NCBI RefSeq assembly: GCF_004212215.1
Contig: NZ_QVFV01000002.1
Span: 127,711-169,242, forward strand
Source: Leptolyngbya iicbica LK
GTDB lineage: Bacteria > Cyanobacteriota > Cyanobacteriia > Phormidesmidales > Phormidesmidaceae
Direction of reading: 5' to 3'
Length of the DNA stretch: 41,532 bases
Shown here: positions 26,561 to 41,424 of the stretch, in pieces
Layout: each line of letters opens with the position of its first letter
Position numbering within the stretch: position 1 is the first letter of the stretch
Translations under genes and position numbers: made by a program
Notes under the pieces: model-generated
Told to the model about the DNA's origin: nothing
The model's input: the letters and a program-made list of their open reading frames with translations, nothing else
Databases searched by the model: none

Positions 26561-26712
26561 TCACCGCCTGCGGCACCTCTCCTTGCCAAGGAGAGGTTTA
26601 TTTACGGGCTGATGCAAGATTTCTCTACGGGCTGATGCAAGATTTCTCACGCATTTGGCAGAGCTTCCGGTCCCTCTCCTTACGAAGGAGAGGCTAGGTG
26701 AGGTTCTCCAGC
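26557..26712. repeat. dispersed repeat, copy 3, with internal 23-bp tandem duplication
   Basis: The ends read ACCTCACCGCCTGCGGCACC and GGCTAGGTGAGGTT, as in copies 1 and 2. Between them lie TACGGGCTGATGCAAGATTTCTC-type units repeated twice in tandem (26603-26625 and 26626-26648), not seen in the other copies. Confidence 0.8.
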
Positions 26713-26829: not shown

Positions 26830-29800
26830 TTAGCCAAGGACAGCTAAGCTGCCAGCAGCGGCGGCACAAATGCCCGAAACCGTCGCGGTGCCAAAGATCC
26901 ACCAGGCGGCAGAAGCTGCTGTCTTGCGGGTATCTTCGACCTGTTGCTGGGCCTCGTGCTTCAGCTCTACCAGGCGATTTTCTACCGCTTGCTCTAGCTG
27001 CTCAGCTTTGCGCAGAGCGGTGTCGCGTACTTCTTCCACCTGGGCAATGACGTGGTTCGCATCGGCCTCGGAAATCGAGTCGTGGGAACTCATCAGCGCC
27101 ACGAGGGTGCCGCGATCGACCTGATTCAGCCGCACCCGCAGCGATTCCAACCCGGCTTGCGGATCATCCATCAGCTGTTGCAGGTCATGGCGAATGCCGT
27201 AGTAGTTCAGCTCGGGGCGTCCCAGGGAATTCAGATAGGTCCGCACGCGAGCCAGAATGCTGCGCACGATGGATTTGATGCGCTCTTGCACGTTGCGGAT
27301 CTGAGCCACGATTTGATTACGCACTTCCAGCACGCGATCGACGGCAGCGGCGGCTTCTTCGCGAGTCATGTCATCGCGCTGAGCCAGCAGCGCCACGACG
27401 GTGTCGCGGTCAATCATCGATAGCCGAGTTTGCAAGTGATCGGCTCCTAGACGCGGATCATCCAGCAACAGCTTGAGATCGCGCTTGATGCCAGCCGGAT
27501 TGAGAGCGGCTTTGTCAGTGTTGCGCAGATAGTCTTCCAGTGCGGCTTCGAAGGAGACCACCTGAGCTTGTACCCGGCGAGCGGCCCGTTGGGGCATCCG
27601 CAGCAGGTCGCGAATGGTCGCCAAAATGTCGTCAATGATTTGATTGACTTCAGCTTCGGTGAGGTCGTCGCGCTGACTGAGCAACTGCACGAGCGTGTCG
27701 CGATCCATCTCAGAGAGGCGGTGACGCATGGCCTGTAGACCCGATTGTGGGTCATTCATCATGAGCTGAAGGTCGCGACGAATGCCGTCAGGGTTGAGTT
27801 CAGGCTTACCCGTTTCGCGCAGATAATTCGCGATCGCGCTGGTGGCTTCGTCATACTTCGCTCGGGCCTGGGCCGTCAATGCCGCTGGCGCATTAATGGA
27901 TTGATACCAGGTCTTTTCAACCTCGTCGATGGTGCGGTTGATCTCAGCTTCCGACAAATCTTGCCGCTGGTTGAGCAACTGTACCAGGGTGTCGCGATCG
28001 AACTGGGCAAACCGCTGGCGGAGGCGATGAATCCCGGCATCGGGCTCATGCAGCAGCGTCTGCAAATCGGCCTTGATGCCGTCGGGATTCAGCTCTGCTT
28101 TGTTCGTGTTCTCCAGATAGTGGCGCAGCGATTGCCATTGATTATCCACTCGCGCTTTGGCCGCCGATTGCACACCTTCAGCATCGGCACGAATTTTGTT
28201 CATCTCGTTTTCGAAGTGGCTGGCGAGGCGCTGCACCTCTTCGGTCGAGAGATCATTACGGTTGTTGAGAGCCTGAGCAAAGGCTTCATACCCAAAGGGG
28301 GCAAAGCGATCGCGATAGTCCTCCGCGTCCGCGTAGGGATCTTCAACCAGGCTGTGGAAGGCCTGAGTGCCCATGTCAGACAGCAGTTCGCTGCGGGGCG
28401 TACGACCCAAAAAGGTGTAGAGCTGCACTTGCAGATCTTTGGCAGCTTCCAAACGATACCGCTCAGATACTTCGCCCAAGGCTTGACGCCGCACCGATTC
28501 CAGCAGATCGGCTGTGTGGGCGATTTCGGCTTTAGTTAATAGATTCCGAGAATCCAAAATATCGGCAAAGTAGGTCCGATCCAGATCCATGAGTTCTTGC
28601 CGCATCAATCCCGGATCGGCAAACGGGTCGTAGATGACATCCCAAAATTCGCTTTTGAGCTGTCTGGCGTTGAGCTGCCAGGGATAGGCGTTGAGCAAGT
28701 ACGTTTCCACGTCGGCTTTGACCACGCTGTAGCGATCGCTGCCACTGACTTTACTGGACAACGTATCGACTTGACTGCCGAGCTGATTTTGGGCTTGCTT
28801 GAGCCGCTGGGCGACCTTTTCCACGTCTAGATCTGACAAATCTACCCGTCCCATGAGCACCGCCATCAGGGTACTCAGCCCCTGGCCGAGAGGACCGCCG
28901 CCCTGCTGGGTCTTGCGCTGCTCGCGATATTCCGCCAGCAGTTCATCCAGGCGGTTACCCAATTCTTCTGATACCAGCTCTTGGGGATTCGCCGACTTCA
29001 GGTAATCCACTAGCTCCGCAACAGAGTCGTTGCTGGAACCGCTACCCAAGGTCTTGCGCCAGGTGCTGTAGAGACGTTGGGCAATGCGATCGGCTTCTTT
29101 GCGAGACAGGTCGGTGCGGCTGCTTACAAGCTTGCCAAAGGTGTCAGGACCAAGCTGTTCTAAGGTTTCGCGATCGGCGATCGCGGTCAAATTTGACTCT
29201 TGAATCAGGCGCTCAAACTCCGCTTCGAGTCCAGCCGTATCGATAGTTGGCGAACTGAGGTTTGTCAGGTAGTCCTGGATGGTTTCCTTCAGGTCTTCGC
29301 CATCCCACCCTGCTGTGAGTTCCTTGCGCACAGCGGCCGCGGTCGCTTCGGCGGTTTGCACTACCTGATTGCTGGCGGCTTTGGCCCCAATCGCTCCCGT
29401 CGCTGCACTCACCAACGATTGAAAGCTGGAGGTGGCCGTTTTCACCACCGACCCAATCAGTGACCCCACCGTGGTGGAGCTAAACCAAAACATCAGGCAA
29501 AAGTAGGTACCCCAGACTACGAGTCCGGTGATGGCCCCCAGCAACAAGCTGTTGTACAGGCTCAACTTGACCGCTAAGTAGCAGGCACAGAACAGCGCCA
29601 AGCTGACCGTCACCAAGGTCCACAGGCCAAACGCCGTACCAATTTTCTTGCCGCCACTGCCTGACTGATTCGAAGTGGAGCTAGAAGATGAATGGCCGAG
29701 ATATGAAATGCCTGCGGCCACTGATAAATTCGTCAGCAACAGATGGAAGCCAAAGGTCAAAATAATGCCAGATAGCAAGGCAATAAAAAATTGCGGCCCT

Positions 29801-29922
29801 GAGAAAATCAGAGCAGCTTCTTCAGGCGTGTCAACCCCTGGACCAGATAGTTGGCCCAGTAAACTTAGTTGGCCTAATAAACTTAGGCTGCCAGTGAAAT
29901 GGCTAGCAAGATATTCAATCAT
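26830..29922 (-). CDS. large membrane-anchored repeat protein (1030 aa, about eight repeats of 99 residues)
   Basis: ATG 29922 is chosen because AGAAAGGAAAA precedes it; the frame also opens at 29991. Three N-terminal helices (about residues 44-66, 98-118, 124-146) and one near the C-terminal end (WWIFGTATVSGICAAAAGSL) bracket a long soluble region. That region has about eight repeats of roughly 99 residues. The last four are very alike: YLRxTxKxELNPDGIRRDL, then LL.DP..G...LR.RL, DRDTLVQLL.QR, DL.EAE.N..ID. The first four are diverged. Repeats are helical and charged and are joined by coiled-coil-like linkers. I do not recognise a characterised family; a scaffold or membrane-curving role is a guess. 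A short SLLGQL duplication lies at residues 14-25. The gene stands alone with a HIP1 hairpin 14 bases past its stop. Confidence 0.85.
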   Translation of the reverse strand: MIEYLASHFTGSLSLLGQLSLLGQLSGPGVDTPEEAALIFSGPQFFIALLSGIILTFGFHLLLTNLSVAAGISYLGHSSSSSTSNQSGSGGKKIGTAFGLWTLVTVSLALFCACYLAVKLSLYNSLLLGAITGLVVWGTYFCLMFWFSSTTVGSLIGSVVKTATSSFQSLVSAATGAIGAKAASNQVVQTAEATAAAVRKELTAGWDGEDLKETIQDYLTNLSSPTIDTAGLEAEFERLIQESNLTAIADRETLEQLGPDTFGKLVSSRTDLSRKEADRIAQRLYSTWRKTLGSGSSNDSVAELVDYLKSANPQELVSEELGNRLDELLAEYREQRKTQQGGGPLGQGLSTLMAVLMGRVDLSDLDVEKVAQRLKQAQNQLGSQVDTLSSKVSGSDRYSVVKADVETYLLNAYPWQLNARQLKSEFWDVIYDPFADPGLMRQELMDLDRTYFADILDSRNLLTKAEIAHTADLLESVRRQALGEVSERYRLEAAKDLQVQLYTFLGRTPRSELLSDMGTQAFHSLVEDPYADAEDYRDRFAPFGYEAFAQALNNRNDLSTEEVQRLASHFENEMNKIRADAEGVQSAAKARVDNQWQSLRHYLENTNKAELNPDGIKADLQTLLHEPDAGIHRLRQRFAQFDRDTLVQLLNQRQDLSEAEINRTIDEVEKTWYQSINAPAALTAQARAKYDEATSAIANYLRETGKPELNPDGIRRDLQLMMNDPQSGLQAMRHRLSEMDRDTLVQLLSQRDDLTEAEVNQIIDDILATIRDLLRMPQRAARRVQAQVVSFEAALEDYLRNTDKAALNPAGIKRDLKLLLDDPRLGADHLQTRLSMIDRDTVVALLAQRDDMTREEAAAAVDRVLEVRNQIVAQIRNVQERIKSIVRSILARVRTYLNSLGRPELNYYGIRHDLQQLMDDPQAGLESLRVRLNQVDRGTLVALMSSHDSISEADANHVIAQVEEVRDTALRKAEQLEQAVENRLVELKHEAQQQVEDTRKTAASAAWWIFGTATVSGICAAAAGSLAVLG

Positions 29923-30479
29923 TATGGTTTTCCTTTCTAAAAAATCAACGGCCCAAGGAGTTTGATGTGAGACGAGCGATCGCCGCCTCATGGCGACCTG
30001 AAGCTCTAGTCACTTAAATTGATGAAGTTCCTATTGCCGCTCCTGAAAAGCTGACTACTCAGTGACATTTGCACCCCAACCCAGTTCAGGAGAACAGCAC
30101 TAACAGCATGACGATGACAACCAGAATCTATGCTGCTTGAGATGCCAATCTAATTATTTCAATTCCGCTATTCGACTCCATTTAATAGGGTTTTCGCCTA
30201 CAAGACATCTAGCGTGAGGAATACCCTAAAAGAAAGATTTTATTTTTATCTCAGTGTGAATATATTTCACAAGTAGCTATTTTTCGATTGCGTATTATTG
30301 GAAATTTTGTTTGCCAGAAATCCTAATCATCTAAAACCAAAATTCCCATAGGAATAGCAGTTATTACGAATAAGAGTAAACTCTCTCGCTAGATAGATTT
30401 TTTAAAGAGGGTGTCTGCGAAACAGCATTGAATCAGAGCTAAAACCATCTACTTGATTGCCTCTGCCCTGCTCTCAAAT
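29923..30479. other. 557-bp AT-rich intergenic region
   Basis: The region lies between the start of the repeat-protein gene and the end of the GvpU-like gene, both minus strand. No ORF, clear hairpin or repeat was recognised. It should contain the promoter and leader of the repeat-protein gene. Confidence 0.5.
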
Positions 30480-30941
30480 TCAGGCGGTAATTTGTTTGGG
30501 AGAGCTGTACATCTCGCCCAGACAAAAGCCAGACACACTATCAATGTCTCCCCGCCAAAGCGTACTGCCCAGCGACGGCATCCCTTTTCCTTCAGAAGGG
30601 TAAAGCTTAGCGTCTCGTAGATGGATGAATCGAGGAAAAGTAGCTTTTTCAGCCGTGCTTTTGATGATGGGTTCTTTGAGCTCGGTCAAAAAGTCTTCTA
30701 GCAAAGACTTCATCTCGTCGTCGGCCTTAGTTTCACGAATGCCTTGCGTCAGTTGTTCAAAATAAGCTTCTTGACTGATGACGAACCCTGTAACTAAAAG
30801 ACCGTCTAGGTTCAAGGTGATACCCAACTCAATGCTGGTTTTTTCAGGAACGAGAGCCAGGGCCTGAAGCAAGCGATCGCTTTCTAGTGGAGCCCGAGCT
30901 GCTCGACTTTTCATCGATTCTGAGACTGCTGATGAAGCCAT
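30480..30941 (-). CDS. GvpU-like protein (153 aa)
   Basis: After a charged N-terminus of about 35 residues, the protein reads ELGITLNLDGLLVTGFVIS, then EAYFEQL. A C-terminal block FIHLRDAKLYPSEG...LWRGDIDSVSGFCLG follows (quoted in parts FIHLRDAKLY and LWRGDIDSVSGF). This order matches, from memory, gas vesicle accessory protein GvpU and its stand-alone relatives. No gvpA or other gas vesicle gene is in the window, so the family membership does not imply gas vesicles. A ribosome site (AGGAAG) precedes ATG 30941. The upstream neighbour in the same direction is a universal stress protein (77 bases), so a stress-related transcript is likely. Confidence 0.6.
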   Translation of the reverse strand: MASSAVSESMKSRAARAPLESDRLLQALALVPEKTSIELGITLNLDGLLVTGFVISQEAYFEQLTQGIRETKADDEMKSLLEDFLTELKEPIIKSTAEKATFPRFIHLRDAKLYPSEGKGMPSLGSTLWRGDIDSVSGFCLGEMYSSPKQITA

Positions 30942-35463: not shown

Positions 35464-38400
35464 TTAAGGACGCAGTTCAGCGATCACCTGGGCTAGTTGG
35501 TCGAGGTCAAAGGGCTTGGCCAGGTGGCGCTGAAATCCCTGGCTGAGGGCCTTGCGGCGCTCTTCATCACGGACGTAGGCGGTGAGGGCGATCACGGGGA
35601 TGTGCGCCAGGTCGGAGTCCAGCGATCGCACGTGGCGAATCAAGGTGTAGCCATCCATCTCGGGCATACCGATATCGCAAATCAAGATGTTGGGGCTAAT
35701 CGTGATCAAATTGTCTAAGGCTGCAGCGGCCCGATCAAAGGTCGCGACCTCGGCCCCGAGATTTTCCAGAGATACCGTCAGCAGGTCTAGCGTGTCGGGG
35801 TTATCGTCAACCACGCAGATGCGTAGTCCGGTCAGGTCAATGTCGTCACTGGTAATGGCGGCGGGCGATCGCGAGGACGTGGGGGTCGGCGATAAGAGTG
35901 GCAGTTTGACCGTAAACGTGGCTCCCTGTTTTTCCCCAGGACTGGTAGCAGTGATTGTGCCGCCATGGGCTTCGATGAGATAGCGCACGATCGCCAAGCC
36001 CAGTCCCAGACCGCCGTACTGTCGCGTGACCGAGGTATCTTCCTGACGAAATGACTCAAAAATGTGGGGCAAAAAGTCGGCATCGATGCCCATCCCCGTA
36101 TCCGTCACTTGAATGTGGGCCCAGCGCTCCACCTGCATCAGGCGAATCTCCACCTGTCCCCCTTCGGGCGTGAATTTTACGGCGTTGGTGAGCAAGTTCC
36201 ACACCACTTGTTGCAAGCGCCCCTCGTCTCCCCGCACCTGACCGATGGCTGGAAAATCGGTCTGGATGGTGATGTTTTTGGCCTCGGCAGCGGACTGTAC
36301 CGTTTCGATCGCGGCCTCAATCACAAACGCCAGATCAACGGTGGTCATTTCTAGTTTCAGTTTGCCCCGCAAAATTCGGGCAACGTCCAACAAATCGTCG
36401 ATCAACTGGGTTTGGAGCTTGGCGTTGCGCTCGATGGTTTCCAGGGCTCGGGCGGTGACTTCGGCACTCATCGTTTTGGTGCGCAGCAGACTAGCCCAGC
36501 CCAAGATCGGGTTGAGGGGCGATCGCAACTCGTGGGAGAGAATTGCCAAAAATTCATCCTTAATGCGGTTGGCATTTTCCGCTGCTTCGCGAGCTGCTTG
36601 TTCTCGTTCTAAGAGCTGCGCCCGCTCGATTTCCGCCTGTTTGCGATCGGTAATGTCAATGGCCACTAGGACAGCATGGCTGGGCTGAGGGGGCGTACTG
36701 GATTGGTCAAAAAATACTTGCTTCCGCACCGATAGCCACTTCACCTCTCCCGCGGGGGTCAAAACGCGATGATCTTGCGCGAACCAACCGGCTCCGGCGG
36801 GGTCCATCAACGCCTGAATCGAGCGCTCCAGTTGGGCGCGATCGTCGGGGTGAAAGGTGTCGTAAAACTGCTCGCGGGAAATGACTGGCTGTTCCGGCGG
36901 CAAGCCGTAGAGCACAGCGGCCTCAGGGGACAACGTGACCTGATTGGTGGCGTAGTTGATTTGGGCGAGGCCAAAGCCCGCCACCTGCATCCCCAGCTGC
37001 AATAGACCTTCCGAGGCTTGTAGCTGCCGTTGGGCCTGTTTGCGATCGCTCACATCCAGAATGAAGGCAACCGTTTCTCGCTGTTCCTCACCCACCAGGC
37101 TATACGCCAACAGCACCGGCACCCGGCGGCCATCCTTACGGATGTACTCCTTTTCGTAGGGGGTACAAGCGCCCCGTTCACGGGCTTCGGCAACATGCTC
37201 CGCATCCAGGGACGTATATTCCGGTGGCGTGATGTCGTCCCACCGAATGCGGCCAGCCTGCAAGTCGTCGCGGCTGTATCCCACAATCCGCAAAAATTCG
37301 TCGTTAGCCCCGGTCACACCGCCGTCAATATCGCCATACAAAATGCCGACGACATTTGAGGCCACAAACCCTTGCAGGCGGGCTTCGTTGGCGGCGAGTT
37401 CTGCCTGGGCCTGCTGGCGTTCAGCCTCTAGTCGGGTGCGATCGCTAATGTCGACGGCAGCGCCAGTTAGCCCCACAACCTGGTGGGTGCTATTCCGAAT
37501 CGGGTCGATGGTCAAATCGTAATATCGGGTTTCCGCTCCTACCGTGACCTGCACTTCTTCTCGCAGGCCGACACCGGTATCCAGCACCTGCTGCTTTAGC
37601 TGGGCTAAGTGATGCCCGGAATCTTGAGACAGCAGATCTTCGTCTCGCTGACCGACAAATTCATCGGCAACGTAGGGCCAACTGGGATTGTAAACCCAGG
37701 TATAACGAAGCTCGTGGTCTTGGGTGAATAGGGTGATGGGGGCACTTTTGAGCGCCACATCGAGCCGGTTAGTGGCCTGTTGCAGCGCCAATTCGGTCTC
37801 CTGGAGATCGGTGATGTCGGTATTGGTGCCAAACCAGCGCACGACCTCACCCTGGGCATTGTGCACGGGCACCGCCCGCGAGAGAAACCAGCGATACTGC
37901 CCATCTTGGCCCCGCAGGGGAAAGGTATCTTCCCAAACTGTGCCGGTATTGAAACAGTGGCGAAGGTGCTTAACGACTCGATTTACATGGTCGGGATGAT
38001 GCACCTGTCGCCACCCCCAACCCTGCATCTCCTCTAGTGTGGTGCCGGTGTAGTCAAACCAGCGCTGGTTGTACCAAAAAATCCAGCCGGTGGGGTCAGC
38101 CATCCAGGCAAATTGAGAAATATTGTCGGCCAGGGTGCGGAACCGTTCTTCACTTTCCTGCAGTTCTCGCTCAGCCTGTTTGCGATCGCTAATATCCGCT
38201 AACGCCCCGTGAAAGGCGACCGGATTGTCATGCTCGTCGTATTCCACCTGGCCCCGCGCAATTACCCAGCGCTCATGAACACCGCCGCTACTGACCCGAA
38301 ACTCTTCGGCGTAGGGTTCACCAGTCTGAATGGCCTGCTTGATCGCGGCTGACACATGGGATTGATCGTCGGGATGGATAGCAGCCAAAAACGTCTCTAG

Positions 38401-40893
38401 CGGGAGTCCTAAGGTGGCCTCGTCGGGTTCCACCCCAAACAGGTGAGCAAAGCTCCGGCTGGTGAAGACTTGATTTTCTGGGATCCGCCAACTCCAGGTA
38501 TAGATCGAGCCCGCTGCCAGGGCTGATTCGAGTTGGATGTGAGCTTCCCGCAGCTCTTGCTCGGCTTGTTTGCGATCGCTGATATCCATATCGACGCCAG
38601 TCATGGCTACGGGCCGACCGCTGTCGTCATAAAACACCCGCCCTAGCCCCAACGCCCAGCGCACTGTGCCATCAGGCTTGATAAAGCGAAACTCAATGTT
38701 GTACTCTGCGCCTTCCTCAATCGCCTGACGAATGCGGGTCTGGACGAAGGGCTGATCGTTGGGGTGAACCATGGCCATCACGGTGTCGAGCTGACCATTA
38801 AAGCTGCCGGGTTCCATGCCAAACATCTGCTGCAAATTATCGGACCAGTAGACCTCTTGGGTAAGCAGATTGAGATCCCACATCCCGATGCCAGCCGCCT
38901 GCATGGCCAGATTGAGCCGTTCTTGATTTTGGTGCAGGGCCACCTCGGTTTGCTTCAGGGGGCTGACATCCATGGTCGAGCCCACCACCCGAATGAGCTG
39001 GCCTTGGTCATCGTGCACTAAGCAACTACGATCCCACACGTGGACCCAATGTCCAGCTTTGTGACGCAGGCGATAGGCTGACTCTTTTAACTCCGGCTTC
39101 GATCGCTGGCTCCCTTTGATCGAGAGGGCTTGGGCCGGCGTCAGCAGCCGCGCCTGGTCATCGGGATGCATTTGTTCAAACCACCATTCCGCCGTGGCTG
39201 GCACCTCGTCGGGGTGCCAGCCCAAGAGCTCGACCAGGTGCTCAGACCGATACATTTCATTGGTCTCGGCATTCCAGTCGTAGATCAGGCTATCGACGGC
39301 CCGTAACACCAGTTGCAGCCGCTCTTCTAGCCGCTTTTGCTGCTCAATATCGGTGATGGTGCCAATCCAGCCGGTGATATTTCCTGTCGCATCGTGGGTG
39401 GGAATACCGCGATTGATAAACCAGCGATAGACGCCATCGTGACGGCGAATGCGGTGCTCGATTTCAAACCCTTCGCCCCCGGTGATGGCTTGTTGCCACT
39501 GGGTCAGGGTGCGATCGCGATCGGCTGGGTGCAGCGCCTCACCAGCCGCCAAATCAAACGATGCCGCTTCGGTCAACCCGGTGTAGTCGTACCAACGCGA
39601 ATTCCAGTAGTTCACCGCGCCAGTCGGATCGGCCCGCCATACCATCTGGGGCATAGCTTCAGCGAGCTCTTGATAGCGTTGCTGGCTCGCTTTGACAGCA
39701 GCTTCGGCTTGTTTTTGGGGCGAGAGGTCAATGGCAAAGGCGACGTGCTCATCCGGATTATCGTGCGATCGCGTGGCGCTAATCCACACCGGCACTTGCG
39801 TCCCATCAGGGCGGAGAAGGGCTTTTTCTTCGGGAGGGAGAAAACCGTGCTGGCGCAGGTATGCCATCGCCGGTTCAATGCGATCCACATATTCCGGCGG
39901 ACAAAAATCGCGCCAGTTCATGCCGTCGCGCTCAAAGTCTTCGCGGGTGACGCCATGGAGGGCCAGCATGGCATCATTAACCAGACGGACAGCCCCGTTG
40001 GCGGTACCAATGCCAATGCCAATCGGGGCGGTATTGAGTAGCTGTTGCAAATAGCTTTGCTGCTGCCGCAGACTGGCGACAGTTTCGTTGAGCTCAAATT
40101 CGAGCTGTTTGCGCTGGGTGATGTCGCGCCACGAGGCGACAAAGCCGTCATTCAGCTTATTGGCGCGCAGATCAAAGGCCCGACTCAGCCGCCGACCGTT
40201 AAACTCGTCCTCATAAACCAAAGACTCCTTGAGTAACGGCTCGCCGGTCTCGACCAGGCGGCAGTACTCATCAAACAAGCCGGATTCGCGGTGAGCGGGT
40301 AGCACTTCACATAAGCCGCAACCCACCTGGGCGTCTCGCGGCATTTGATTGATGACACAGGCAGCCTGATTGAGATACTCGATGCGAAAATCTGTGATCT
40401 GTCCAGCGTCATCGCGTATCGCGGTAAAGATGCCAAAGCAGTCCAGCAGGTTTTCAACAGAGGTTTGAAACTGGATTTCTTGCTGCTTAAGTTCTTGCTT
40501 GAGAGTGGCATTTTCGATCGCCGTTCGCAACGATTCGCTCAGGGTCTCAGCGGTTACTTGATCTCGCACCAAATAGTCGGCGGCCCCAGCCCGACCAGCT
40601 TGCAGCGCGAGGCGAGTATCTGCGTCTCCAATCACCAAAATCGGTGGACAGGCATCGCCTAATTGCGATCGCACTTGCGTCACCGTGCCTAGATCGCCAA
40701 GGGGTAGCGGTGGCACATCTAGGATGATGCCATCCAGCTCAAATTCTCCATTATCTGGTAAACAATCAATGCCGTGCAGCGCTTCAATTACCGGGTATGA
40801 CGAGTGGAGTCCTTGATGCAGTAACTGCCGATATCGTTCGACACCTTCCGCCAGCTCGCCAATGACTAAAATCCTTAACTTGTGACCTGACAT
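35464..40893 (-). CDS. multi-PAS hybrid histidine kinase (1809 aa)
   Basis: ATG 40893 is preferred to ATG 40929 because it begins directly with the receiver-like domain MSGHKLRILVIGE. Domains in order: an N-terminal receiver-like domain (about 1-125) with D59 but only one acidic residue in the usual acid pocket. Then about ten PAS/PAC units, each ending in ITDRKQAE/DISDRKQAE-type linkers. Then HisKA with SHELRSPLNPILG (H1454), a HATPase_c domain (NLLTNAVKFTPEGG, GGLGLGLAIV), and a C-terminal receiver with ICDIGMPEMDGY (D1740). No transmembrane segment is visible, so it should be cytosolic. It should autophosphorylate H1454 and pass phosphate to D1740. The number of PAS domains is exceptional, and no input signal can be told. 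Confidence 0.9.
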   Translation of the reverse strand: MSGHKLRILVIGELAEGVERYRQLLHQGLHSSYPVIEALHGIDCLPDNGEFELDGIILDVPPLPLGDLGTVTQVRSQLGDACPPILVIGDADTRLALQAGRAGAADYLVRDQVTAETLSESLRTAIENATLKQELKQQEIQFQTSVENLLDCFGIFTAIRDDAGQITDFRIEYLNQAACVINQMPRDAQVGCGLCEVLPAHRESGLFDEYCRLVETGEPLLKESLVYEDEFNGRRLSRAFDLRANKLNDGFVASWRDITQRKQLEFELNETVASLRQQQSYLQQLLNTAPIGIGIGTANGAVRLVNDAMLALHGVTREDFERDGMNWRDFCPPEYVDRIEPAMAYLRQHGFLPPEEKALLRPDGTQVPVWISATRSHDNPDEHVAFAIDLSPQKQAEAAVKASQQRYQELAEAMPQMVWRADPTGAVNYWNSRWYDYTGLTEAASFDLAAGEALHPADRDRTLTQWQQAITGGEGFEIEHRIRRHDGVYRWFINRGIPTHDATGNITGWIGTITDIEQQKRLEERLQLVLRAVDSLIYDWNAETNEMYRSEHLVELLGWHPDEVPATAEWWFEQMHPDDQARLLTPAQALSIKGSQRSKPELKESAYRLRHKAGHWVHVWDRSCLVHDDQGQLIRVVGSTMDVSPLKQTEVALHQNQERLNLAMQAAGIGMWDLNLLTQEVYWSDNLQQMFGMEPGSFNGQLDTVMAMVHPNDQPFVQTRIRQAIEEGAEYNIEFRFIKPDGTVRWALGLGRVFYDDSGRPVAMTGVDMDISDRKQAEQELREAHIQLESALAAGSIYTWSWRIPENQVFTSRSFAHLFGVEPDEATLGLPLETFLAAIHPDDQSHVSAAIKQAIQTGEPYAEEFRVSSGGVHERWVIARGQVEYDEHDNPVAFHGALADISDRKQAERELQESEERFRTLADNISQFAWMADPTGWIFWYNQRWFDYTGTTLEEMQGWGWRQVHHPDHVNRVVKHLRHCFNTGTVWEDTFPLRGQDGQYRWFLSRAVPVHNAQGEVVRWFGTNTDITDLQETELALQQATNRLDVALKSAPITLFTQDHELRYTWVYNPSWPYVADEFVGQRDEDLLSQDSGHHLAQLKQQVLDTGVGLREEVQVTVGAETRYYDLTIDPIRNSTHQVVGLTGAAVDISDRTRLEAERQQAQAELAANEARLQGFVASNVVGILYGDIDGGVTGANDEFLRIVGYSRDDLQAGRIRWDDITPPEYTSLDAEHVAEARERGACTPYEKEYIRKDGRRVPVLLAYSLVGEEQRETVAFILDVSDRKQAQRQLQASEGLLQLGMQVAGFGLAQINYATNQVTLSPEAAVLYGLPPEQPVISREQFYDTFHPDDRAQLERSIQALMDPAGAGWFAQDHRVLTPAGEVKWLSVRKQVFFDQSSTPPQPSHAVLVAIDITDRKQAEIERAQLLEREQAAREAAENANRIKDEFLAILSHELRSPLNPILGWASLLRTKTMSAEVTARALETIERNAKLQTQLIDDLLDVARILRGKLKLEMTTVDLAFVIEAAIETVQSAAEAKNITIQTDFPAIGQVRGDEGRLQQVVWNLLTNAVKFTPEGGQVEIRLMQVERWAHIQVTDTGMGIDADFLPHIFESFRQEDTSVTRQYGGLGLGLAIVRYLIEAHGGTITATSPGEKQGATFTVKLPLLSPTPTSSRSPAAITSDDIDLTGLRICVVDDNPDTLDLLTVSLENLGAEVATFDRAAAALDNLITISPNILICDIGMPEMDGYTLIRHVRSLDSDLAHIPVIALTAYVRDEERRKALSQGFQRHLAKPFDLDQLAQVIAELRP

Positions 40894-41424
40894 GGCGTTC
40901 CCAAATCTCCATTCCCAGCCTCTTGGCATAGTGCGTGCAACGCACGTTTACGAGTCAAGCGGCCTTTCCGATAAACTTGACTCGGCAGCACAAATCTGGT
41001 CAGAAACCACAGTGAGAATTGAACGATGTCCAGCCATCTAAGTTCTAGTTCATCAGCAAGTAACCGGATGTCATTAGGCATAGCCTTCACGAACTACCGG
41101 CTGACAGATTCCCCAAAATTTTAATCGTTCTATAGGCCACAGAGTCTCTATCTCAAGATAGAAGCTTAGTTCTACCCTGAATCGGCTGGAGTCAGTTGCT
41201 TAGAATTAGTGTTAACAGAATGTCAATAAAGTTTTGACTGACTTTTTTTGACTGACTTTCTTGCAGACCTATGGGGTTGAATTATTGTGGTAAGGCGAAT
41301 TAGGTCATCTTTAACATCATCTGTTTAAGGAAATCACGTTGACTTTTATCTTAGACAAAGAACCTGTATCTTTAGTGCGGTCGTTAGATTTGAACGCGAA
41401 GCATTGATTCATTAATCATTGAAT
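40894..41424. other. intergenic region upstream of the kinase gene
   Basis: About 530 bases. It contains a perfect tandem pair TTTTGACTGACTTT at 41232-41245 and 41246-41259 and otherwise AT-rich sequence. The kinase promoter should lie here. No convincing gene is present; a 71-codon minus frame at 40875-41090 overlaps the kinase start and lacks protein character. Confidence 0.5.

Follow-up and report, generated by a model that had tools for sequence, protein, structure and literature searches.

An eight-unit repeat protein of cyanobacteria as a probable unit-amplified variant of the PhnA-like membrane protein family

The DNA considered here (hereafter the window) is a 41,532-nucleotide stretch of Leptolyngbya iicbica LK (assembly GCF_004212215.1, contig NZ_QVFV01000002.1, positions 127,711 to 169,242), and on its minus strand lies a 3-kb gene for a long protein with membrane helices at both ends and helical repeats in between. 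Sequence comparisons indicate that this protein is a unit-amplified variant of a family of short membrane proteins, several of which are annotated 'PhnA-like protein'; for the membrane domain this assignment is firm, for the repeat unit it is good. We rank the protein as a variant, and not as a plain PhnA-like member, because it has eight units in 1030 residues where the PhnA-like proteins have one segment in ~300. As a whole, the statement that it is a unit-amplified member of this uncharacterised family, acting as a stress-associated membrane scaffold, has in our estimate a probability of about 0.5. The scaffold role by itself is a guess, perhaps one chance in four.

Layout of the gene and its repeats

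By the first-start rule the open reading frame (ORF) spans 26830-29991, but the better start is the ATG at 29922, which is preceded by AAAGGAAAACCATA, with an AAAGGA-type, ribosome-site-like stretch upstream, and which confirms the coordinates 26830-29922 of a preliminary description made from the letters alone. From its N-terminus, the encoded protein has three membrane helices, then eight units of ~98 residues, and it ends with a single further membrane helix (Table 1). Hydrophobic blocks at residues 36-72 and 94-145 span the N-terminal helices, which a low-confidence model places at 43-75, 94-120 and 128-148. The C-terminal helix has a Kyte-Doolittle peak of 1.56 (residues 1011-1029), just below the threshold of 1.6, the highest value in between being 1.03; its match to the final helix of PhnA-like proteins is the further reason for calling it transmembrane helix (TM) 4. 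The hydrophobic blocks and the TM4 match bear out the earlier view that three N-terminal helices and one C-terminal helix bracket the repeats. The N-terminal leader contains a short tandem repeat (29848-29886, 18-base period, 2.2 copies) that is unrelated to the 98-residue units. When the host genome was searched with the protein (E up to 1), the sole match was the protein itself.

Self-comparison of residues 201-1030 recovered the periodicity described earlier, with best offsets of 98, 196 and 294; the top score over 25 residues was 98, and 100 shuffles reached no more than 44. A unit profile, seeded with the four clear units and then iterated on its own hits, found units 1-4 in its first pass at i-Evalues of 4.6e-11, 0.02, 1.7e-9 and 9.2e-9; after iteration it delimited eight units over residues 183-964, the weakest being unit 2 (1.5e-21), and a ninth match at 972-1001 was not significant (0.13). 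Of the proposal of about eight 99-residue repeats with a period of 295-300 bases, the number stands and the period becomes 98 residues (294 bases). Diverged relatives do precede the last four units, as had been suggested, but the last units are far from near-identical: pairwise identity among units 5-8 is 31-41%, and units 1-4 are 17-25% identical to the rest. That Tandem Repeats Finder reported no 294-base period is expected, because the units are only 17-41% identical in protein.

Kinship with PhnA-like and zero-unit proteins

Used as a query, the window protein finds short proteins of cyanobacteria, all 215-224 residues long save one of 295 (E 3.2e-9 to 3.5e-7). In the reverse search, a cyanobacterial protein without any repeat unit (0-unit form) returned the window gene at 1.1e-7. 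A 0-unit query also matched 91 plasmid records, mostly from Rhizobiaceae, several of them annotated 'PhnA-like protein' (best 3e-9 among the 15 matches listed). The window protein itself had no match in the plasmid (E 1e-5) or phage (E 0.01) collections, and L030 as query found nothing on plasmids. From 18 fetched places we assembled a set of 16 PhnA-like proteins, leaving out L124 (near-identical to L122) and L169. Fifteen are from Alphaproteobacteria and one is from Dyadobacter (Bacteroidota), some being annotated only 'hypothetical protein' or not at all; the tally of plasmid matches names Paraburkholderia and Spirosoma as well, which lie outside this set. With helices assigned by inspection and by aligning the sequences with the window family, the PhnA-like proteins have three membrane helices, one helical segment and a last membrane helix in ~300 residues (287-346 in the members read, L167 with its uncertain start excepted).

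All three parts of the window protein match this set in the same order. In hhalign comparisons, the N-terminal domain gave Prob 98.3 (E 1.7e-14), the N-terminal domain together with unit 1 gave Prob 99.0 (E 3.5e-18, 217 columns), and the C-terminal part, that is the charged helix and the membrane helix, gave Prob 94.4 (E 9.3e-8). The unit profile aligned to the PhnA-like middle segment with a score of 29.5 (E 6e-5), the controls reaching at most 11.6 in 59 column permutations, 9.9 with the reversed profile, 15.1 with an SMC coil and 12.9 with OEP. In addition, a hidden Markov model (HMM) of the unit found the Dyadobacter protein (2.1e-5) and one from Geminicoccaceae (7.2e-5), against a best value of 1.0 among 16 reversed and 0.82 among 320 shuffled sequences. 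The PhnA-like proteins differ in their positively charged C-terminal tail and their N-terminus. The 0-unit cyanobacterial proteins (~215-224 residues, four TM helices, e.g. L057:5645-6319) share the N-terminal membrane domain (Prob 96.9) and, weakly, the last helix (Prob 37.7), and are without the repeat unit.

It could be supposed instead that this is an unrelated, wholly new membrane-bracketed repeat protein. Searches of Pfam, NCBIfam and PDB sequences with the whole protein indeed gave only short or chance-like matches and no whole-length Pfam or NCBIfam model, in keeping with the earlier expectation that no well-characterised family would match, and no PDB sequence or fold match was convincing. 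The ordered profile matches of all three parts contradict this supposition, however, and we consider it very improbable. For the same reason the preliminary statement that no characterised protein has this layout fails as a claim about layout, three TM helices, a unit and a last TM helix being the PhnA-like arrangement; the PhnA-like proteins are themselves uncharacterised, and our literature searches found no functional study of the long protein or the PhnA-like family, so that as a claim about function the statement holds. The phrase 'PhnA-like protein' occurs in PMC12429752 and PMC2954226; a table in the former places it under signalling in Sinorhizobium (S.) meliloti prophages, which may or may not refer to the membrane family described here.

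Age of the array and number of units

For a comparison of unit ages we used 14 proteins (112 units), namely the window protein and 13 others that share 43-75% identity with it. For 111 of the 112 units, the nearest unit in another protein occupied the same-numbered position, and the figure remained 111 when units of the same protein were allowed. In a unit tree, seven of the eight positions were monophyletic (support 0.89-1.0), the exception being u5. Judged from these unit sequences, the eight-unit array is old, and the recent C-terminal expansion suggested earlier is not borne out. Because units group by position across proteins, the likeness of units 5-8 reflects older duplications or slower change.

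Matches to the window protein were present in 30 of 59 relatives' genomes, the window's own included; by table reading 27 of these have the long form, some on cut contigs. A phylum-wide sample gave matches in 57 of 386 cyanobacterial genomes and 40 of 142 genera, often with two genes per genome. Eight is the usual unit number. Of 100 distinct ORF sequences with any part of the family, 70 carry both membrane parts and eight units, no more and no fewer; the 100 take in contig-cut ORFs, close strains and 11 ORFs in which the N-terminal domain stands by itself. This answers the count of repeats in orthologues that the preliminary description had proposed. The rest are 0-unit forms, diverged paralogues (502-964 residues, with 1-5 recognisable units), contig-cut ORFs and a few variants with 7 or 10 units. 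The ten-unit form (L107:7947-11630) has units 3 and 4 present twice as a pair, the copies being 39% and 34% identical, and L210 has seven units. The paired gain in L107 had suggested an even-parity rule (a hairpin of 4+4 units), which we dropped given the seven units of L210. A first count of nine units in L097 became eight with position-specific profiles; there are extra residues between its units 5 and 6 and one weak extra match (2 bits). In L212 (G116:C1:3715500-3722000) a break within unit 1 splits the long gene in two, and ~1.4-1.5 kb separate the halves. The 3.3-Mb genome of L110 yielded no more of the long protein than its last two units and C-terminal helix (L110:10019-10927).

The long and 0-unit forms tend to occur together. 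Among the relatives, 20 of the 27 genomes that have the long form also have the 0-unit form, vs. one of the 32 that lack it; in the phylum sample the figures are 18 of 19 vs. one of 79. These counts were made by eye from tables, own genome included; the relatives table left out G001, G042 and G047 (matches other than the long form), the phylum table left out G091 and four weak 0-unit matches (G064, G094, G097, G106), and G109 (C-terminal end only found) and G116 (gene split) were counted as having the long form. The Fisher values (5.5e-9 and 1.7e-17) overstate the evidence because shared ancestry is ignored, and the two sets overlap. The window's own genome yielded the long form and no 0-unit form, thus the pair is not obligatory. 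At five loci (L031-L034 and L039, from Leptolyngbya, Nodosilinea, Phormidium and Tildeniella) the two genes stand ~2 kb apart with a 429-residue ORF between them, which is GlgC-type where tested (L031).

Predicted structure and fold searches

An AlphaFold model of the full protein (10 sequences) had a mean pLDDT of 48, its best part being residues 401-580 (54-87 by block), and a two-unit fragment (45 rows) reached a mean of 63. Both low-confidence models draw the unit as three short helices joined by a long helix of ~45 residues, which stands at 464-507, 560-606 and 854-899 in the model of the full protein and at 86-132 in that of the fragment. The final helix of the full model, 952-1028, takes in TM4 (pLDDT mostly <50). 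An alpha-helix rises 0.15 nm per residue; if the long helices are real, each would add ~6-7 nm, and the loop could therefore be long, though this is arithmetic only.

Long helices in such models, together with membrane helices at both ends and the usual count of eight, are also what one would expect of a tether between two membranes, with TM1-3 in one and TM4 in the other (plasma membrane and thylakoid, or two sheets) and the eight units as a bridge of fixed length. Against this, the relatives of 215-224 residues without a unit and those of ~300 with one keep the three N-terminal helices and the last one, which leaves no room for a bridge, and forms with seven and ten units exist. Kinship with four-TM proteins that have no unit favours a closed loop with a single anchor over such a bridge, and we regard the tether as quite unlikely.

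No library fold stood out in the fold searches. The best Foldseek match of the two-unit model had E 2.3, and matches to spectrin (E 2.4 and worse) were not significant. EzrA and spectrin-type rods, as membrane-anchored chains of helical units, serve as a working analogy only; no family match to them appeared in the sequence searches, none of which was a direct homology test. With the full model as query, VIA-align matched many unrelated helical proteins, the highest Z being 8.3 (retromer VPS35, 96 residues, rmsd 2.8); we set these aside, as Z fell within the tool's warning range and the query model had a low mean pLDDT. Matches to ExbD, Hydantoinase, flap endonuclease and apolipoprotein were taken as helical look-alikes. 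A PDB profile match to 8fjg_A ('H12') had a whole-sequence E of 2e-4, with two stretches at i-E 0.64 and 5.8 covering at most 36 profile positions.

The HU family of Pfam (PF00216, Bac_DNA_binding) matched all 14 members examined at E up to 0.01, the window protein scoring 27.3 bits vs. a cut-off of 22.4, from which one might propose a DNA-binding or nucleoid-anchoring membrane protein. The likeness lies in the short helix pair of the unit: the window protein matches positions 1-36 of the 90 in the profile, whereas the DNA-binding arm is held by the unmatched part, and it differs from HU in being membrane-bound and repeated. We give this proposal hardly any credence.

Side of the membrane

In the PhnA-like proteins, mean K+R is 2.5 at the N-terminus, 0.2 in loop 1-2, 2.2 in loop 2-3 and 3.2 at the C-terminus, which by the positive-inside rule would put the unit outside; the 0-unit proteins give 5.3, 1.0, 1.9 and 3.2, respectively. 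Cysteine is rare in the repeats (six in 59,449 residues, 0.1 per 1000; 66 of 72 proteins have none), compared with 9.7 per 1000 in the N-terminal membrane domain, 4.2 in SMC (taken as cytoplasmic; 0 of 19 partial ORFs cysteine-free) and 2.4 in OEP (taken as exported; six of 18 cysteine-free). Counted for cytoplasmic repeats, in the 14-protein set, are an acidic N-terminus (1.9 K+R vs. 3.8 D+E) and the loops, of which loop 2-3 is charge-poor (K+R/D+E 0.9/0.1) and loop 1-2 has 2.1/2.3; the repeat flanks have 3.6/2.8 and 7.9/6.8. The signal-like leaders of two listed orthologues (L022, L059) also count on the cytoplasmic side. On balance, exported units are slightly favoured.

Genomic context

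To one side of the long gene lie a 153-residue ORF, Usp, a DAO-Rieske oxidoreductase, a LuxR-type regulator and a multi-PAS hybrid kinase; to the other are MBL-rhodanese, DUF3616, DUF3891 and GAF genes, a perfect tandem pair of a 23-base unit (26603-26648) standing between the long gene and the downstream MBL-rhodanese gene. Further off are GMC oxidoreductase, MFS, SDR, baeRF, phosphoketolase, amylase and other genes. Positions 743-40929, which also include a PLDc protein and an AI-2E family member, read like a stress and carbon-metabolism island. We considered DAO-Rieske as a conserved partner and rejected it, as it occurred at only two of 17 other loci (L059, L022), some with short flanks. 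Besides the family itself and one kinase/receiver cluster, the widest shared neighbour was found at five of 31 loci.

The presence of the LuxR-type regulator and the multi-PAS kinase, and of ORFs of that one kinase/receiver cluster near 14 of the 31 loci (a count that stands without a background rate, kinases being common in such genomes), would suit a mechanosensory or signalling protein, in which the helical units sense load or ligand and pass the signal through the last helix into TM4; the single modelled helix joining unit 8 to TM4 would fit as well. On the other hand, Pfam and NCBIfam searches of the window protein found no output or catalytic domain, and the loci show no pairing with one particular kinase. 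We think a sensor about as doubtful as the tether.

Besides Usp in the window, genes of a stress type occur near the PhnA-like relatives: a YsnF/AvaK or DUF2382 gene was present at six of 14 annotated loci (L122, L123, L124, L158, L159, L166) and was not found at the other eight within the flank taken (1.5-3 kb). A Nostoc punctiforme strain that overproduces alkane had raised levels of AvaK and its neighbours, and accumulation of AvaK following a herbicide is also mentioned (PMC7660261).

Table 1. Features of the long gene and selected neighbours in the window
Feature	Position	Strand	Remarks
Whole gene	26830..29922	-	1030 aa; better start ATG 29922, AAAGGA-type ribosome site
N-terminal three-helix membrane domain, residues 36-190	29353..29817	-	homologous to PhnA-like and 0-unit proteins
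TM1	29698-29796	-	within N-terminal membrane domain
TM2	29563-29643	-	within N-terminal membrane domain
TM3	29479-29541	-	within N-terminal membrane domain
Repeat unit 1	29065..29373	-	iterated unit profile
Repeat unit 2	28795..29064	-	iterated unit profile; weakest match
Repeat unit 3	28501..28794	-	iterated unit profile
Repeat unit 4	28207..28500	-	iterated unit profile
Repeat unit 5	27913..28206	-	iterated unit profile
Repeat unit 6	27619..27912	-	iterated unit profile; short HU-like Pfam match (residues 739-774) begins in this unit
Repeat unit 7	27325..27618	-	iterated unit profile
Repeat unit 8	27031..27324	-	iterated unit profile
Charged helix running into TM4, residues 965-1005	26908..27030	-	alignment and low-confidence model
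C-terminal membrane helix TM4, residues 1006-1028	26839..26907	-	rich in small residues; AAWW conserved
153-aa ORF between long gene and Usp	30480-30941	-	no Pfam match at E 0.001
1821-aa hybrid histidine kinase	35464-40929	-	domain search; eight PAS_3 stretches

Proposed explanation

What the comparisons show is the anatomy of the protein, how each of its three parts is related to the short proteins, that the array is old and that eight is its usual count; the following mechanism could be built on this. The shortest relatives consist almost entirely of four membrane helices, and in the single-unit relatives one helical unit lies between TM3 and TM4. This segment was presumably multiplied to eight units before the compared cyanobacterial lineages split. 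Each unit is predicted to have three short helices and a long helix leading to the next, the last helix running into TM4. The units may then form one long, semi-rigid helical loop, leaving the membrane at TM3 and returning at TM4, which could serve not as an enzyme but as a membrane scaffold or spacer associated with stress. As in the preliminary description, scaffold, tether or mechanosensor roles are a guess.

Several points weigh against this explanation. The unit match taken alone is modest (Prob 64-65; 63.8), was not significant when only four PhnA-like sequences were used (Prob 0.4), rising as the profile was deepened, and only two of the 16 single PhnA-like proteins fell below 1e-3 with the unit HMM. 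AlphaFold confidence is low (mean pLDDT 48 and 63), and in the full model the linker helix of some units is split in two (658-704, 756-801), so the rod is only a sketch. Stress genes in the neighbourhood are evidence by association only, and nearly the same gene cluster recurs at three of the six loci that have them (L122, L124, L166); no conserved operon or gene order surrounds the long form at the 31 loci. Finally, a signal-like leader starts two of the 69 orthologues listed (L022, L059); it would put the units inside, and the topology signs conflict, the PhnA-like charges pointing outwards.

One could go further and picture a size-graded family, in which one four-helix anchor bears zero, one or eight units and the eight-unit form is a rod-like loop of fixed length, working with the zero-unit form as a membrane spacer or ruler in times of stress in cyanobacteria. 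In its favour is the joint occurrence of the two forms, uncorrected for shared ancestry, but the extension is speculative and we think it improbable.

Significance

A 3-kb gene without a whole-length family model gains a family assignment, a definition of its repeat and an account of how it evolved, and it is tied to short membrane proteins, encoded on plasmids of rhizobia and others, that are no better explained. These short relatives (~220-300 residues) lend themselves much better than the long protein to expression, structure determination and deletion, and so open the way to testing what the whole family does. The prevalence of eight units in arrays from many cyanobacterial genera suggests that the length of the array matters.

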